Below, one piece after another: positions 4,184 to 42,451 of a stretch of 55,021 bases of DNA. A model generated the notes under the pieces. The model made no database searches, was not told the DNA's origin, and was given only the letters and a program-made list of their open reading frames with translations. The stretch comes from Clostridia bacterium (lineage in GTDB: Bacteria > Bacillota > Clostridia > JAQVDB01), in assembly GCA_028698525.1 (NCBI GenBank), contig JAQVDB010000003.1, positions 1-55,021 on the forward strand, given 5' to 3'. Each line of letters begins with the position of its first letter. The stretch's first letter is position 1. Position numbers and translations under genes: made by a program.

Positions 4184-6019
4184 GTGTATCAAGAAATAGA
4201 CAGAGTTTTAAAGAAAGTCCAGAAACCAGCTAGATACATAGGCAATGAATATAACATGGTTATCAAAGATGTAGAAACTGTAGATGTTCGCTTTGCGTTT
4301 GCGTTTCCAGATACTTATGAAGTGGGAATGTCCCACTTGGGCCTTAAAATTTTATACCACTTGATGAATGAAAGAGATGATGTGTTTTGTGAAAGGGTAT
4401 TTGCCCCATGGCTGGATATGGAAGAGCAAATGCGAGGTAGGAATATCCCATTGTTTTCCCTCGAGACAAGGACAGCATTAAATGATTTTGATTTGATTGG
4501 ATTTACGTTGCAATATGAAATGTGTTATACAAACATATTAACTATGCTTGATCTTGGAAATATCCCTTTATTTTCAAAAGAAAGAGAATTGGAGCATCCC
4601 TTTATAATTGCCGGTGGACCAAGTGTTTATAATCCCGAACCATTGGCGGATATAATTGATTTTTTTGTGGTAGGTGAAGCAGAAAATGTAATAAACGATA
4701 TTATCGATGTATATAAGGAATGGAGGCATTTACCAGGCAAGAGCAGAGATGATTTTTTGAAACAAGCAGCTAGACTACCTGGTATATATGTCCCTAAATT
4801 TTATAATGTAGAGTATTATAAGGATGGTAGGATAAAAGAGTTTTATCCGATGCAAGAAGGCTGTCCGGTGAAAATTAAAAAAAATATAATAACTGATATG
4901 GATAAAGTTTATTATCCGGACAATGTCATAGTACCGTTTACCGATATAGTTCACGATAGAATAGTACTTGAAATATTCAGGGGGTGTACAAGAGGCTGCC
5001 GATTTTGTCAAGCGGGGATGGTATATAGGCCGGTTAGGGAGAAGTCTATATCTAGATTGATGGAACTATCACAAGATTTAATAAAAAATACCGGGTATGA
5101 ACAGATTTCGTTGGCTTCATTGAGTACAGGGGATTATTCTGAAATTGAAGATCTTATCCTTAAGTTGATGGAGAAAAATGAGGGACAAAAAGTTTCTTTA
5201 TCACTACCGTCTTTAAGGTTGGACAGTTTTTCAAAAGAATTTATCAAACAAATAAAAAAAGTAAAGAAAACAGGATTGACCTTTGCACCAGAGGCAGGGA
5301 CTCAAAGATTGAGAAATGTCATAAATAAGGGAATAGATGAGAAGGATTTGATAAATTCTGCTATAACCGCCTTTGAATTTGGATGGACAAGCTTGAAGTT
5401 TTATTTTATGTTAGGGTTACCTACTGAACAGGATGAGGATGTGGAGGCAATATTTGATCTTACGCAAAAGGTTGTAGATGAATATAAAAAAATGTCAAAG
5501 CCTTTAAAGAGATTAAAGATAACTGTGAGCACCTCTACTTTTGTTCCTAAAGCATTTACTCCCTTTCAATGGGAACCTCAGTTGTCAATATCAGAAATAC
5601 ATAGGAGACAGCAATATTTGAATTCTTTATTTAAGAACAAAAGAATAACATATAATTGGCATGATGCTGAACTGTCTTATCTAGAAGCAGTTTTTGCACG
5701 TGGGGATAGAAAGCTCAACAAAGTATTGTATAGGGCATGGCAGAAAGGATGCAGATTTGATAGCTGGAACAGCAATTTTAATTATCAAAAATGGATGCAG
5801 GCATTTGAAGAATGCCATATTGATCCTGATTTTTATGTATATAGAAAGAGAAATTATGATGAAATATTGCCTTGGGATCATATAGATGCAGGAGTATCAA
5901 AGCAATTTTTGATAAAAGAGCATAAAAGAGCTCTAAAGGGAATTACAACTCCTGATTGCAGAGAGGCATGCATTAATTGCGGGGTTAAGAACTTAAAAGA
6001 AGGTGTTTGTGAGCGATGA
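4184..6019 (+). CDS. B12-binding-type radical SAM protein, TIGR03960 family
   Basis: This 611-residue protein belongs to an uncharacterised family annotated as TIGR03960. The N-terminal third resembles a cobalamin-binding fold (FAFPDTYEVGMSHLGLKI; FIIAGGPSVYNPEPL). The central radical SAM core has the cluster motif CTRGCRFC (Cys268, Cys272, Cys275). A second cysteine group lies at the extreme C-terminus: Cys592, Cys596, Cys599 and Cys609, again spaced CxxxCxxC. The GTG start at 4184 follows GGAGGAGT. Its stop overlaps the next start (ATGA), and in other genomes the same partner is fused or adjacent. Biochemical function is unknown. The neighbourhood (rng, rplU, rpmA) suggests an RNA or ribosome modification, but that is inference. 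Confidence 0.88.
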   Translation: MYQEIDRVLKKVQKPARYIGNEYNMVIKDVETVDVRFAFAFPDTYEVGMSHLGLKILYHLMNERDDVFCERVFAPWLDMEEQMRGRNIPLFSLETRTALNDFDLIGFTLQYEMCYTNILTMLDLGNIPLFSKERELEHPFIIAGGPSVYNPEPLADIIDFFVVGEAENVINDIIDVYKEWRHLPGKSRDDFLKQAARLPGIYVPKFYNVEYYKDGRIKEFYPMQEGCPVKIKKNIITDMDKVYYPDNVIVPFTDIVHDRIVLEIFRGCTRGCRFCQAGMVYRPVREKSISRLMELSQDLIKNTGYEQISLASLSTGDYSEIEDLILKLMEKNEGQKVSLSLPSLRLDSFSKEFIKQIKKVKKTGLTFAPEAGTQRLRNVINKGIDEKDLINSAITAFEFGWTSLKFYFMLGLPTEQDEDVEAIFDLTQKVVDEYKKMSKPLKRLKITVSTSTFVPKAFTPFQWEPQLSISEIHRRQQYLNSLFKNKRITYNWHDAELSYLEAVFARGDRKLNKVLYRAWQKGCRFDSWNSNFNYQKWMQAFEECHIDPDFYVYRKRNYDEILPWDHIDAGVSKQFLIKEHKRALKGITTPDCREACINCGVKNLKEGVCER

Positions 6020-6705
6020 GACTATGGGCTAAATTCACCAAAAAAGAAAAATTAAAATATTTATCTCATTTAGACCTAGTAAGGACTTTTGAGAGAAGCT
6101 TCAGGAGAAGCAGACTTCCTGTTACTTTTACAAAAGGATATAATCCACATGTAAAATTTGCATTTGCATCTGCTTTGCCGGTAGGTACTAGCAGTACTTC
6201 TGAATATATAGACATATATTTAGATTCTCAACTGCATGCTTTAGATGTTATGAACAGACTGAATTGTAGTTTACCTGATGGCATAATAGTTACAGATATT
6301 AAAGAGGTGGAAGCGGATTTTCCATCTCTAATGTCTTTAATTAGAGGGGCTGAATATAAATTAACTTTAACTGAACCTTTAATTAAAACAGAGGGACACA
6401 TAAATCAATGCATAGTTGAAATGTTGAATAAAAAAGATGTTTTTATCGATAAAAAAACCAAAAAAGGATGGAAAAAGGTTGATTTAAAACCTTTAATTGT
6501 GAGCGCTTCATATAAAAACAATTATTTTGAAATTTTTTTGAAAACCGGTAGTGTAGCCAATGCTACACCGGAGCAATTTATACAGGCGTTGAACGATTAT
6601 ACTGATTTAAGTTTGGATATGGATATTATCGACATTCAAAGAAAGGGATTATTTATAAATAATCGAACAGAATTAAAGGAGACACCTTTTGACTATAAAC
6701 TTTAA
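6016..6705 (+). CDS. DUF2344 / TIGR03936 protein, partner of the radical SAM protein
   Basis: This 229-residue protein belongs to the DUF2344 family (TIGR03936). Visible family features are the N-terminal WAKFTKKEKLKYLSHLDLVR and the following SRLPVTFTKGYNPHVKFAFA, which resemble sequences found fused to radical SAM proteins elsewhere. It overlaps the upstream gene by 4 nt (ATGA), indicating translational coupling, and lies 20 nt before rng. No catalytic motif is visible and there is no membrane segment. It probably acts with the radical SAM protein, perhaps in substrate binding. Function is not known. Confidence 0.85.
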   Translation: MRLWAKFTKKEKLKYLSHLDLVRTFERSFRRSRLPVTFTKGYNPHVKFAFASALPVGTSSTSEYIDIYLDSQLHALDVMNRLNCSLPDGIIVTDIKEVEADFPSLMSLIRGAEYKLTLTEPLIKTEGHINQCIVEMLNKKDVFIDKKTKKGWKKVDLKPLIVSASYKNNYFEIFLKTGSVANATPEQFIQALNDYTDLSLDMDIIDIQRKGLFINNRTELKETPFDYKL

Positions 6706-6725
6706 TTATGCGGGAGAGTTGCTAA

Positions 6726-8417
6726 ATGAGCAAAGAAATAGTATCTGATATAAATTTTGAACAAACAAGAGTAGCCTTATTAGAAGATGGAGACTTGGTC
6801 GAAATTTACATAGAAAGACATGATAATCGCAGAATAGTGGGTAATATATACAAAGGAAAGGTTTCAAATGTTTTATCCGGTATGCAGGCGGCCTTTGTGG
6901 ATATAGGACTTGATAAAAATGCGTTTTTATACATAGGAGATATTGCTACAGATAAATCAGTGTTTGAATTTGAAAACTCGCAAATGAATATAGACAACAT
7001 ATCAATAACGGATGTTCTCAGACCAGGACAGGAAATAGTAGTCCAAGTTGTAAAAGAACCCATAGAAAGAAAGGGGCCAAGGATTACTACTAATATCACT
7101 ATACCCGGTAAATATCTTGTTTTGATGCCAACAGTCAATCATACAGGGGTATCTAAAAGGATACAAGAGGAAGATGAAAGGAATCGGTTAAAGCTAATAG
7201 CTGAAAAAATAAAGCGGGATGATATTGGTATAATTGTAAGGACTGCAGCTAGAAATAAAACAGAAGAAGAACTAAAGAAAGAACTGTCGTATTTGGAAAG
7301 TCTTTGGGAAAATATTAAGCAGAAAATCGCGGATGCCAAAGCTCCTTCGACTATATATCAAGATGAAAATTTGATGTATAGGATATTCAGGGATATTTTT
7401 TGTGATGATATAGATAAGTTTGTAATAAACGATAGAGAATGCTATCAAAACATATGTGATTATGCCAGATGTTCTTCACCAGAACTGGTTGATAGGATAA
7501 TATATTCAGATAACATACATATATTTGATGAATATAACATTGAATCAAAGATATTGAAGGCTATAAACAGAAAGGTCTGGTTGGATTGTGGTGGATATCT
7601 TGTAATAGATCAGACAGAAGCTTTGACTGTAATTGATGTAAATACAGGAAAATTTGTGGGATCAAAAAATCTAGAAGATACTGTATTTATAACTAATCTA
7701 CAAGCTGCAAAAGAAATAGCGAAACAGCTGAGGCTTAGGGATATAGGAGGAATAATAATAATTGATTTTATCGACATGGAGGTTGAACAGCATCAGAATG
7801 AGGTTTTGGAATTATTAAAACAGAGTCTGGAAAAGGACAGAACTAAAACTAACGTGCTAGGCATTACAAAATTAGGACTAGTTGAAATAACTAGAAAAAA
7901 AATAAGACAGAGAATAAGGTCTGTGTTGCAAAAGCCTTGCCCATATTGTGAAGGTACAGGGAAAGTTTTTTCTGAAGAGACAATGGTGATAAAGGTAAAA
8001 CGAAAGATAAGCAAGCTTTTTGCTGATAGTGGGGCTGAAGCAGTTCTTATTGAAGTGTATCCTGATGTTGCCTCTATGGTTATTGGTCAGAACGGAGAGG
8101 GATTATTACAACTAGAAAATCAATTTAAAGGAAAAGTTTATATAAAAGGTAACTATAATCTACATATTGAAGATATAAAAATCAAAGCAATAGGTGATGA
8201 TAAAGCGATAAACTCCCTTGCAATGCCGGTAAAGCAAGGAGAAATACTCTATCTGAACATTGAAGGGAGACATGTTGCTCAAAACAGAAATGGTATAGGA
8301 AGGATCGATGGTTATATAGTAGATGTTGAAAATGCGGGAAACTTAGTTGGTAAGCGAGTAAAGATAAAAATTGAAAAGGTATTTAGGACATATGCAAAAG
8401 CAATAATAACAAGTTGA
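6726..8417 (+). CDS. rng: Ribonuclease E/G family endoribonuclease
   Basis: The enzyme cuts single-stranded AU-rich RNA, as in rRNA maturation and mRNA decay. The 563-residue protein shows an S1 RNA-binding domain (about 37-125), an RNase-H-like catalytic region with the metal-binding aspartates in VIDVNTGKF (Asp304) and IIIDFID (Asp347), and the zinc-link CPYC (Cys405, Cys408). It is longer than E. coli RNase G (about 489 aa) because of a C-terminal extension (about 505-563) resembling a TRAM domain, an RNA-binding module. ATG 6726 follows GCGGGAGAG. It is the last gene of the operon with the radical SAM/DUF2344 pair, and the rplU promoter overlaps its stop codon. Confidence 0.93.
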   Translation: MSKEIVSDINFEQTRVALLEDGDLVEIYIERHDNRRIVGNIYKGKVSNVLSGMQAAFVDIGLDKNAFLYIGDIATDKSVFEFENSQMNIDNISITDVLRPGQEIVVQVVKEPIERKGPRITTNITIPGKYLVLMPTVNHTGVSKRIQEEDERNRLKLIAEKIKRDDIGIIVRTAARNKTEEELKKELSYLESLWENIKQKIADAKAPSTIYQDENLMYRIFRDIFCDDIDKFVINDRECYQNICDYARCSSPELVDRIIYSDNIHIFDEYNIESKILKAINRKVWLDCGGYLVIDQTEALTVIDVNTGKFVGSKNLEDTVFITNLQAAKEIAKQLRLRDIGGIIIIDFIDMEVEQHQNEVLELLKQSLEKDRTKTNVLGITKLGLVEITRKKIRQRIRSVLQKPCPYCEGTGKVFSEETMVIKVKRKISKLFADSGAEAVLIEVYPDVASMVIGQNGEGLLQLENQFKGKVYIKGNYNLHIEDIKIKAIGDDKAINSLAMPVKQGEILYLNIEGRHVAQNRNGIGRIDGYIVDVENAGNLVGKRVKIKIEKVFRTYAKAIITS

Positions 8418-8448: not shown

Positions 8449-8521
8449 GGTAAGCCGCTCAAAATGGGTTTAAAATCAATTTTTGATACCTGATTTTGGC
8501 GAGACTGGGAACGAGGAGGTG
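8449..8521 (+). promoter_or_regulatory. L21 leader RNA (ribosomal-protein autoregulatory leader)
   Basis: Between promoter and rplU lies a long hairpin. CGC-T-CAAAAT (8456-8465) pairs with ATTTTGGCG (8493-8501) with one bulged T, and an inner stem pairs GGT...ATCAA with TTGAT..ACC. It is followed by GAGACTGGGAACGAGGAGGTG, which contains the ribosome binding site. This layout and 3' sequence match my recollection of the L21 leader of Firmicutes, thought to bind L21 or L27 for feedback control. Assignment is by pattern only; a covariance-model search would confirm it. Confidence 0.7.
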
Positions 8522-12900: not shown

Positions 12901-12924
12901 TTATTAGATGAGGAGCAGTAGATA

Positions 12925-13110
12925 AATATAAACTAAAAGAGAGCTGGTGGTTGGTGTGAACTAGTAGTTTTATTTATTGAACTCGCCTCGTTAGATATCT
13001 AAATGGTTAGCTCCATTAAAAGCTTTAAGAGTTGATATTTTCAAGATATCAAATAGGGTGGTAACACGGGAATAGAACCTCGTCCCTAACGGGATAGAGG
13101 TTTTTTTTAT
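12925..13110 (+). promoter_or_regulatory. Leucine T-box riboswitch
   Basis: A T-box leader precedes leuS. Stem I contains AGAGAGCTGGTGGTTGGTG and ends at the specifier loop GAACTCGCC, in which CTC (12982-12984) would pair with a tRNA-Leu GAG anticodon. The T-box sequence AGGGTGGTAACACGGG (13055-13070) provides TGGT to pair with the uncharged acceptor end ACCA, consistent with discriminator A of tRNA-Leu. It is followed by the terminator at 13076-13108. Uncharged tRNA-Leu should stabilise the antiterminator and switch leuS on. Confidence 0.93.
13076..13108 (+). terminator. T-box regulated terminator before leuS
   Basis: ACCTC..CCC and GGG...AGAGGT form a stem around TAAC, followed by a run of eight T. 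Part of its 5' arm neighbours the T-box sequence, so terminator and antiterminator can exclude each other. Confidence 0.88.
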
Positions 13111-41146: not shown

Positions 41147-42451
41147 TTGCCAAAAGCCGCATTTTATACTCTAGGGTGTAAAGTTAACCAATACGATACC
41201 CAGGGAATTGTAGAACAGTTTGAACAAAACGGATATCAAATAGTTGGATTTGATGATAATGCAGATGTTTATGTTGTAAATACCTGTACTGTTACAAATA
41301 TTAGTGCTAGAAAATCCAGGCAGATGATAAGGAGAGCAAAACGCCATAACAAAAAAGCTATTGTTGTGGTGATGGGTTGTTATGCTCAAATATCTCCAAA
41401 AGAGCTGGAAGGATTGGAAGATGTAGATATAGTTTTGGGTACTAATAAAAGAGGTCAATTGCTTTATTATATTGATCAAGTGAAAAAGAACAGACAAAAA
41501 ATATCTATTGTTGATGATATAAAGGACATTAATCAATTTGAGGAAATACCTATAAGCGGGTATCAGACAAGAACTAGGGCGTTTGTAAAAATACAGGAAG
41601 GTTGTAACCAGTTTTGCTCTTATTGCATAATACCTTATGCAAGGGGACGGATAAGGAGTAGAAATCAAAGCAGTATAATAAACGAAGTAAAGAAGCTTTC
41701 TTCTGAAGGATACAAGGAAATTGTGCTTACTGGTATTCATATAGCATCATACGGATTAGATACAGGAGAATCAGGGCTTATAGATGTTATTGAGGCTATA
41801 AATGAAATATCTGGTATAGAAAGAATAAGGTTAAGTTCTGTTGATCCACGTTTGTTGACGGACGAGTTTATAGAAAGGGTATCAATCATTACCAAGATGT
41901 GTCCACATTACCATGTTTCTTTACAGAGTGGGTGCAATAAAATTTTAAGAGATATGAACAGAAGATACACAACAGAGGAATATGAGACTGCAATAATGAA
42001 GTTAAAATCTGCAATTCCAAATGTTTCAGTAACTACAGATATTATAGTGGGATTCCCGGGAGAGACAGCTGATGACTTTAAAATGACTTGTGATTTTGTG
42101 AAAAGGATAAAGTTCAGCCAGATACACATATTTAAGTTTTCTCCTAGAAAGGGTACCCATGCAGCTCTATTAGATAATCAGGTGAATTCTAAAGTAAAAG
42201 AACAAAGAAGCAGACAGCTGAACGAGATTGCACAACAGTTAAAATATGATTTTATGATTTCGTCTAAAGGCAAGAAAGCTAAAGTATTATTTGAGCAGGA
42301 ATCGCCTGCAATTGAAGGTTATTATGAAGGGCATACTGATAATTATATTAAAGTATTATCAAAAAGCGATTATGATATTATAAATAAGATAATGGATGTA
42401 AAACTTACAAAAATATTTAATGAAAGCATTATTGGTGATATTGTACAATAA
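41147..42451 (+). CDS. mtaB: tRNA (t6A37) methylthiotransferase MtaB
   Basis: MtaB converts t6A37 to ms2t6A in tRNAs. The 434-residue protein has an N-terminal UPF0004 domain (TLGCKVNQYDTQ, VVNTCTVT, MGCYAQ) holding three cysteines for an auxiliary cluster. The radical SAM motif is Cys153, Cys157 and Cys160 (GCNQFCSYC), with a C-terminal TRAM-like region. The sequence GCKVNQYD and the position after rsmE favour MtaB over MiaB. The TTG start at 41147 follows TAGGAGGAT and lies 3 nt after rsmE. Confidence 0.94.
   Translation: MPKAAFYTLGCKVNQYDTQGIVEQFEQNGYQIVGFDDNADVYVVNTCTVTNISARKSRQMIRRAKRHNKKAIVVVMGCYAQISPKELEGLEDVDIVLGTNKRGQLLYYIDQVKKNRQKISIVDDIKDINQFEEIPISGYQTRTRAFVKIQEGCNQFCSYCIIPYARGRIRSRNQSSIINEVKKLSSEGYKEIVLTGIHIASYGLDTGESGLIDVIEAINEISGIERIRLSSVDPRLLTDEFIERVSIITKMCPHYHVSLQSGCNKILRDMNRRYTTEEYETAIMKLKSAIPNVSVTTDIIVGFPGETADDFKMTCDFVKRIKFSQIHIFKFSPRKGTHAALLDNQVNSKVKEQRSRQLNEIAQQLKYDFMISSKGKKAKVLFEQESPAIEGYYEGHTDNYIKVLSKSDYDIINKIMDVKLTKIFNESIIGDIVQ

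Follow-up and report, generated by a model that had tools for sequence, protein, structure and literature searches.

A stretch of 55,021 nucleotides of Clostridia bacterium DNA (contig JAQVDB010000003.1 of assembly GCA_028698525.1; the whole stretch is called the window here) contains two neighboring genes of the families TIGR03960 and TIGR03936. The NCBIfam names of these families, rSAM_fuse_unch and sam_1_link_chp, carry no reaction, in agreement with an earlier model-made reading of the same DNA (the original prediction). The first gene (4184..6019, forward strand, as are all genes and elements placed here) starts with GTG and encodes a 611-residue B12 (cobalamin)-type radical S-adenosylmethionine (SAM) protein, assigned to TIGR03960 by its NCBIfam score and modeled with AlphaFold2. 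The second (6016..6705) starts with ATG and encodes the 229-residue TIGR03936/DUF2344 protein, for which a pseudouridine-synthase fold of the TruA type is predicted. The two genes overlap by 4 nucleotides (nt) in the sequence ATGA, and rng, a gene of the RNase E/G family (6726..8417; 563 residues), starts 20 nt past the DUF2344 stop. The gene order in this part of the window is rodA, mgsA, M23 peptidase, M50 peptidase, TIGR03960 radical SAM, DUF2344/TIGR03936, rng, L21, prp, L27, obgE, yhbY, nadD, yqeK and rsfS; the names rodA, L21, L27, obgE, nadD, yqeK and rsfS rest on matches to annotated Collinsella genes, and mgsA and yhbY were assigned by eye. The overlap, the 20-nt gap to rng and the position before L21/L27 had all been claimed in the original prediction, and each was borne out by the coordinates of the open reading frames (ORFs) and by the family scores.

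The distribution of the two genes was surveyed in 249 genomes of the window's phylum, for which a completeness of at least 95% was requested. Presence was scored from matches to TIGR03960 at E <= 1e-100 (223 genomes, of which 222 exceeded the family cut-off), to TIGR03936 over its cut-off (222 genomes) and to RNase E/G at E <= 1e-30 (219 genomes). Negatives were in part taken from absence among the listed positives (6 for TIGR03960, 10 for RNase E/G and 26 for the corrinoid domain PF02607), and weak TIGR03936 matches in seven pair-negative genomes were scored as absent. By these rules 222 genomes have both genes of the pair and 26 have neither; the single remaining genome (G207) has the radical-SAM gene and a DUF2344 fragment that covers 43 model positions and contains one internal stop. 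Adjacency was counted where rows for both genes concerned were printed, that is, in 118 genomes for the pair and in 104 for DUF2344 and rng. The pair genes were adjacent in 117 of the 118, the matches in the exception being 394 nt apart. A second sample consisted of 80 contig loci, in 78 of which a script, which also chose the start codons, placed both genes. In 62 of these loci the two genes overlap, and in 13 DUF2344 starts within 200 nt of the radical-SAM gene; the other three comprise one fusion, one pair at a distance of 4460 nt and one locus (L023) with an early-ending radical-SAM ORF. Such overlap and proximity across 78 loci indicate that the arrangement is not due to chance. Fused genes were found at locus L069 and also in G122, G188, G025, G227 and G168, five genomes that belong to the same family; the DUF2344 half was confirmed with Pfam in G122 and by eye in the others, and the statement that the two families are often adjacent or fused therefore holds. 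TIGR03960 and DUF2344 together are the unit at this locus. One locus (L144:3438-5867, genome G244) has an 810-codon TIGR03960 frame with an HD domain (PF01966, E 2.7e-7) in frame ahead of the radical-SAM protein.

The DUF2344 protein of the window is a full member of its family, with 202.8 bits against TIGR03936 (cut-off 71.9) and 177.1 bits against PF10105 (cut-off 23.8). Sequence searches of the PDB returned no significant relative of DUF2344. Its AlphaFold2 model (predicted local distance difference test score, pLDDT, 95.6; predicted template modeling score, pTM, 0.90) was used for structural searches. With Foldseek the best match was PUS3 (E 9.5e-8), and the 27 matches at E <= 0.001 were all pseudouridine synthases or chains from H/ACA, telomerase and mitoribosome-assembly entries; we take the latter chains to share the pseudouridine-synthase fold. 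VIA-align ranked PUS3 first (Z 14.2; 199 of 229 residues at 3.1 A), followed by PUS10 (13.9) and TruA (13.8), with spans of 195-200 of the 229 residues, and its best 50 rows were all of these same kinds. The predicted model has the duplicated alpha/beta fold that characterizes pseudouridine synthases. Profile comparison by hhalign of DUF2344 with 29 TruA sequences of relatives (from 30 loci; none was found by the script in L113) gave E values of 2.9e-5 (probability 73.6) and 5.1e-5 (67.3) in the two directions, against 0.57 for a control in which the radical-SAM profile was compared with TruA. A weak or second TIGR03936 match fell inside the TruA gene in all 11 genomes examined, which were chosen for having such a match, and the weak TIGR03936 matches of the seven pair-negative genomes are TruA itself. 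A passage of PMC7955657 has Pfam's PUA clan placing DUF2344 beside pseudouridine synthases.

The likeness to TruA, PUS3 and PUS1 extends over the whole predicted DUF2344 fold (Z 13-14), the profiles (E 3-5e-5) and the weak cross-matches of hidden Markov models; unlike these enzymes, however, DUF2344 lacks the catalytic Asp and is nearly always paired or fused with a radical-SAM protein. The loss was seen in an alignment of 67 sequences (66 of 79 locus proteins plus that of the window, near-duplicates and short ones having been dropped by eye). Opposite D52 of TruA, the Asp of the RTDxGVHA loop, the profile alignment places column 55, a Pro in the window protein (6178..6180). The residues in this column are G in 36, S in 18, P in 9 and A in 4 of the 67 proteins, and Asp in none. 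The TruA/DUF2344 alignment starts at the edge of the catalytic Asp, which leaves some doubt about the exact column; no acidic residue, however, occurs in columns 54-57. By eye, no Asp was seen at position 55 in actinobacterial or fused relatives. The residues that are invariant in all 67 proteins are H18, L19 and D20 (6067..6075) and G41, and K9, R23, R31, K146, K149 and R209 are nearly so; outside the clostridia, inspection by eye showed L19 replaced by Arg in Nonomuraea and D20 by Glu in Collinsella. On the evidence of the predicted model and of the profile comparison, DUF2344 is a TruA-type pseudouridine-synthase fold from which the catalytic Asp has been lost. A literature search with DUF2344, TIGR03960/TIGR03936 and their short names, covering open-licence PMC papers, found no functional study; the dead site and its meaning for the radical-SAM partner are in none of the papers found and are new here.

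The radical-SAM protein is likewise a full member of its family (TIGR03960, 952.7 bits against a cut-off of 462.3, model positions 1-605 of 605). Its AlphaFold2 model has a pLDDT of 87.2 and a pTM of 0.89, with pLDDT values of 51-61 near residues 11-20, 251-260 and 341-360 and at the C-terminal end. A Radical_SAM_N2 domain (PF19864, E 1.6e-66; residues 53-204, 4340..4795) lies within the Rossmann-like region. The barrel core, matched by PF04055, carries the CxxxCxxC motif (C268, C272 and C275; 4985..5008), whose cysteines are present in 58 of 58 aligned proteins (57 of 79 locus proteins plus that of the window, selected as for DUF2344); motif, domain and fold matches place the protein in the radical-SAM superfamily. 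The nearest solved structure is MgmA (TIGR04014, PDB 9ccb), a methyl-coenzyme M reductase glutamine C-methyltransferase whose NCBIfam name marks a B12-type radical-SAM protein (Z 20.1 over 372 residues, model 36-508). MgmA is also nearest to the radical-SAM core by sequence (E 2.6e-8) and by profile (E 9.7e-14), and TIGR04014 matches this core with 57.8 bits, far below its cut-off of 360. The matches ranking below MgmA, MtaB (17.1), CysS (16.8), MiaB (16.7), AprD4 (16.3), RimO (16.0), TsrM (15.7) and OxsB (14.7), are a mixture of B12 and non-B12 enzymes. MgmA, TsrM, CysS and OxsB align over both domains of the model, in the arrangement with an N-terminal Rossmann-like domain that is typical of class B; since MiaB and RimO have the same two domains without B12, this is a class B match in fold only. 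The window protein differs from MgmA (19% identity) in having a pseudouridine-synthase-fold partner and a C-terminal extension with four cysteines (C592-x3-C-x2-C...C609; 5957..6010), a possible iron-sulfur cluster or zinc site. These cysteines had been pointed out in the original prediction; all 58 aligned proteins keep C592, C596 and C599, and 56 of them keep C609, while inspection by eye found the fourth Cys placed otherwise in other lineages.

The N-terminal domain of the radical-SAM protein, when searched alone, gave no meaningful match. The protein has no DxHxxG motif; D43-x-Y45-x-x-G48 lies just ahead of the PF19864 domain. According to a passage of PMC8828468, the B12 enzyme Mmp10 is likewise without DXHXXG. 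The corrinoid domain PF02607 was found in 190 of 223 pair-positive and 13 of 26 pair-negative genomes (Fisher p 1e-4, uncorrected for kinship), an enrichment that is suggestive. A second, weak TIGR03960 match of the window's own genome (E 7.7e-8) lies at 41147-42451 of the window and is by eye a methylthiotransferase of the MiaB/MtaB type. The Synechocystis protein Slr0320 was also considered. PMC8065906 describes it as a B12-radical-SAM protein that cells require in high light; its membership in TIGR03960 is doubtful, as judged from its 532 codons and a radical-SAM domain from about residue 242, and it was not used.

The surroundings of the pair were compared in other genomes. In Nonomuraea, an actinomycete and thus of another phylum, the whole order rodA, pair, RNase E/G, L21, L27 and obgE is repeated, and in Collinsella the pair stands immediately before L21 with no rng at that place. 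A second ribosomal context, in which the pair is followed by L19, in some cases lepB, and then ylqF, rnhB and yraN, was found in R. albus, L015, L021 and L023. The Ruminococcus albus plasmid pRUMAL02 (L089), typed as conjugative, carries the pair plus L19, ylqF and rnhB, and the TIGR03960 frame of L144 mentioned above sits between L21/L27/obgE and L19/ylqF/rnhB, so that both sets of neighbors occur in one genome. Synechococcus elongatus and Thermotoga maritima both score above the TIGR03960 cut-off and match TIGR03936 as well. Of the control genomes, 14 in number and including Haloferax volcanii, those of E. coli and B. subtilis remained below the TIGR03960 cut-off and had no match to TIGR03936.

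From these observations we think it somewhat more likely than not that the pair modifies RNA. A pseudouridine-synthase fold that has lost its own catalysis would hold RNA out to the B12-dependent radical-SAM enzyme, which would probably C-methylate it, and RNase G would not be needed. The two genes would encode the two subunits of a single enzyme. DUF2344, its catalytic Asp lost, would have been retained for binding an RNA and presenting one of its bases; RNA is the proposed substrate because DUF2344 has the predicted fold of RNA-modifying enzymes. The TIGR03960 protein would be a class-B (cobalamin-type) radical-SAM enzyme that cleaves SAM at its CxxxCxxC cluster, with a cobalamin in the N-terminal domain carrying the methyl group by which a carbon of the presented base may be methylated; cobalamin and C-methylation are proposed because the protein belongs to class B by family and fold. 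The likeliest target might be 23S rRNA or the assembling 50S subunit, with tRNA next, and this faint indication comes from the genes that stand next to the pair, L21/L27/Obg or, in some clostridia, L19/YlqF. The original prediction of a cobalamin-dependent methylation or thiolation of an RNA or ribosomal protein is thus supported as to the cobalamin-type enzyme, with MgmA nearest, and as to the RNA substrate, by the partner's fold; thiolation has become less likely.

A number of observations weigh against this interpretation. The hhalign probabilities are just 74 and 67%, and DUF2344 proteins tend to be acidic, with a net charge of -4 and an isoelectric point of 5.8 as medians (+5 and 9.0 for the window protein), which speaks against plain RNA binding. 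PF02310 has no match in the radical-SAM protein of the window at E 0.001 and reaches only 20.6 bits in a fused relative, below its cut-off of 32.1. PF02607 is missing in 33 of the 223 pair-positive genomes, which weakens the case for B12 there. Some contexts are not ribosomal, with ligA downstream in L006 and L009 and mreB in L041, and the L19-YlqF cases may be one single event. Finally, MgmA, the closest solved relative, methylates a protein by its family name. This last point leads to the first alternative, an unlikely one that nevertheless ranks ahead of the others, in which the pair modifies a protein (e.g. a ribosomal protein or translation factor) in the manner of MgmA, and DUF2344 docks on the ribosome or on a ribonucleoprotein without presenting a base. 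Both the nearest fold and one nearest family are those of the glutamine C-methyltransferase, and genes for L21, L27 or L19 adjoin the pair. However, the full-length predicted fold of the partner is that of RNA-modifying enzymes, and the likeness to MgmA is limited to 19% identity, with MtaB, MiaB and RimO close behind.

A second alternative, slightly less probable again, would make the pair and RNase G parts of one pathway, in which the modified site marks or follows RNase G cleavage during rRNA maturation; the original prediction had RNase G trimming the same substrate. The window rng product is of the Rne/Rng subfamily (TIGR00757, 505 bits against a cut-off of 325.95) and scores 490.2 bits with the narrower NCBIfam 'ribonuclease G' model, below the cut-off of 594. 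It has S1, thioredoxin-like and C-terminal TRAM (PF01938) domains. Many rng frames were of about 560-590 residues in the 249-genome search, and many of about 395-400 in the 80-locus sample. A wide separation of the pair from rng in related genomes, which would have counted against the original prediction, did not occur; rng directly follows DUF2344 in 103 of 104 genomes, the exception having the two on different contigs, and does so again in Nonomuraea. The presence of the pair and of rng is positively associated (odds ratio 5.1, Fisher p 0.001, uncorrected for kinship) but separable: both occur in 202 genomes, the pair without rng in no more than 21, rng without the pair in 17, and neither in 9. 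All eight of the 17 rng-only genomes that were opened, three of them from one genus, show rodA, M50, rng, L21, prp, L27 and obgE without the pair. Among the 11 pair-only genomes that were opened of the 21, four (two of one family) keep M50 or rodA, the pair and L21 without rng; G023 has a shortened RNase E/G ORF, for which reason 21 is an upper bound, the contig of G226 stops just past the pair, and five have other or unidentified genes downstream. The pair was also seen without an adjoining rng in several other contexts (L006, L009, L041 and L123-L127). Moreover, the RNase is present in the controls E. coli, Caulobacter and Corynebacterium, none of which matches TIGR03960 or TIGR03936. Loss in both directions argues against an obligatory shared substrate, and the claim of joint trimming is not supported. 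RNase G is a frequent operon companion of the pair that can be lost separately from it, and is not a required part.

It is improbable, and clearly more so than a joint pathway with RNase G, that DUF2344 works as a pseudouridine synthase or base isomerase through another acid (D20, E63 or D66), and that its product is what the radical-SAM enzyme modifies further. These acids are indeed conserved in the alignment (D20 in 67, E63 in 66 and D66 in 63 of the 67 proteins), but the Asp of the catalytic loop is gone, and by eye Glu replaces D20 in Collinsella and D66 in Nonomuraea.

The methylthiotransferases MiaB, MtaB and RimO, which act on tRNA or ribosomal protein S12 and have three N-terminal cluster cysteines as their hallmark, resemble the TIGR03960 protein in the radical-SAM core and Rossmann-like N-terminal domain. 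That the latter is such an enzyme, thiolating RNA or protein, is very unlikely: the fold is near (Z 16-17) and Cys stands at positions 69, 114 and 147 in 56, 57 and 57 of 58 proteins, but the window protein has Ser147, the fused lineage and L144-L147 have C69, C114 or both replaced (by eye), so that a three-Cys cluster is not constant across the family, and a Pfam scan found no TRAM domain on the radical-SAM protein.

Downstream of rng, the window has an element resembling L21_leader (8456..8506; RF00559, 33.6 bits, slightly below the Rfam cut-off of 36), followed by rplU for L21 (8532..8843, with an ATG in the sequence taken as its start; in the ORF list it starts at a TTG, 8496), the first gene of the L21-prp-L27-obgE run. 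A T-box leader (113.9 bits) was located at 12902-13090 of the window, directly upstream of a gene named by eye as that of leucyl-tRNA synthetase.

To our knowledge no B12-dependent radical-SAM enzyme that acts on RNA has been described. Our more specific proposal is that such an enzyme, guided by a dead TruA, installs in ribosomes or tRNAs a nucleotide that has not been described before, C-methylated or modified at a carbon in some other way, and this we put forward tentatively, as falling a little short of an even chance. The carriers would be most bacteria of the window's phylum and those cyanobacteria, Thermotoga and actinobacteria that have the pair, to the exclusion of E. coli and B. subtilis; as these two lack the pair genes, the product should be missing from their well-mapped RNAs, and it could be present in those of Synechococcus elongatus and Thermotoga maritima. 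One candidate product was rejected. The 16S nucleoside N-330 (position 1404) is reported in a passage of PMC2584109 from Thermotoga maritima, which has the pair, and from H. volcanii. The latter genome matches neither TIGR03960 (E 0.001) nor TIGR03936, which rules out the pair as the general source of N-330.

Both genes occur in 222 of the 249 sampled genomes of the phylum, and TIGR03960 also in Synechococcus elongatus and Thermotoga maritima, yet the two families carry no assigned reaction. The likeness of DUF2344 to a dead pseudouridine synthase narrows the question of what the radical-SAM protein does to that of a nucleoside dependent on the pair. If the proposal is true, it would join B12 radical chemistry to RNA modification, and the modification would be one that could not be seen in E. 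coli or B. subtilis, from which the genes are absent.

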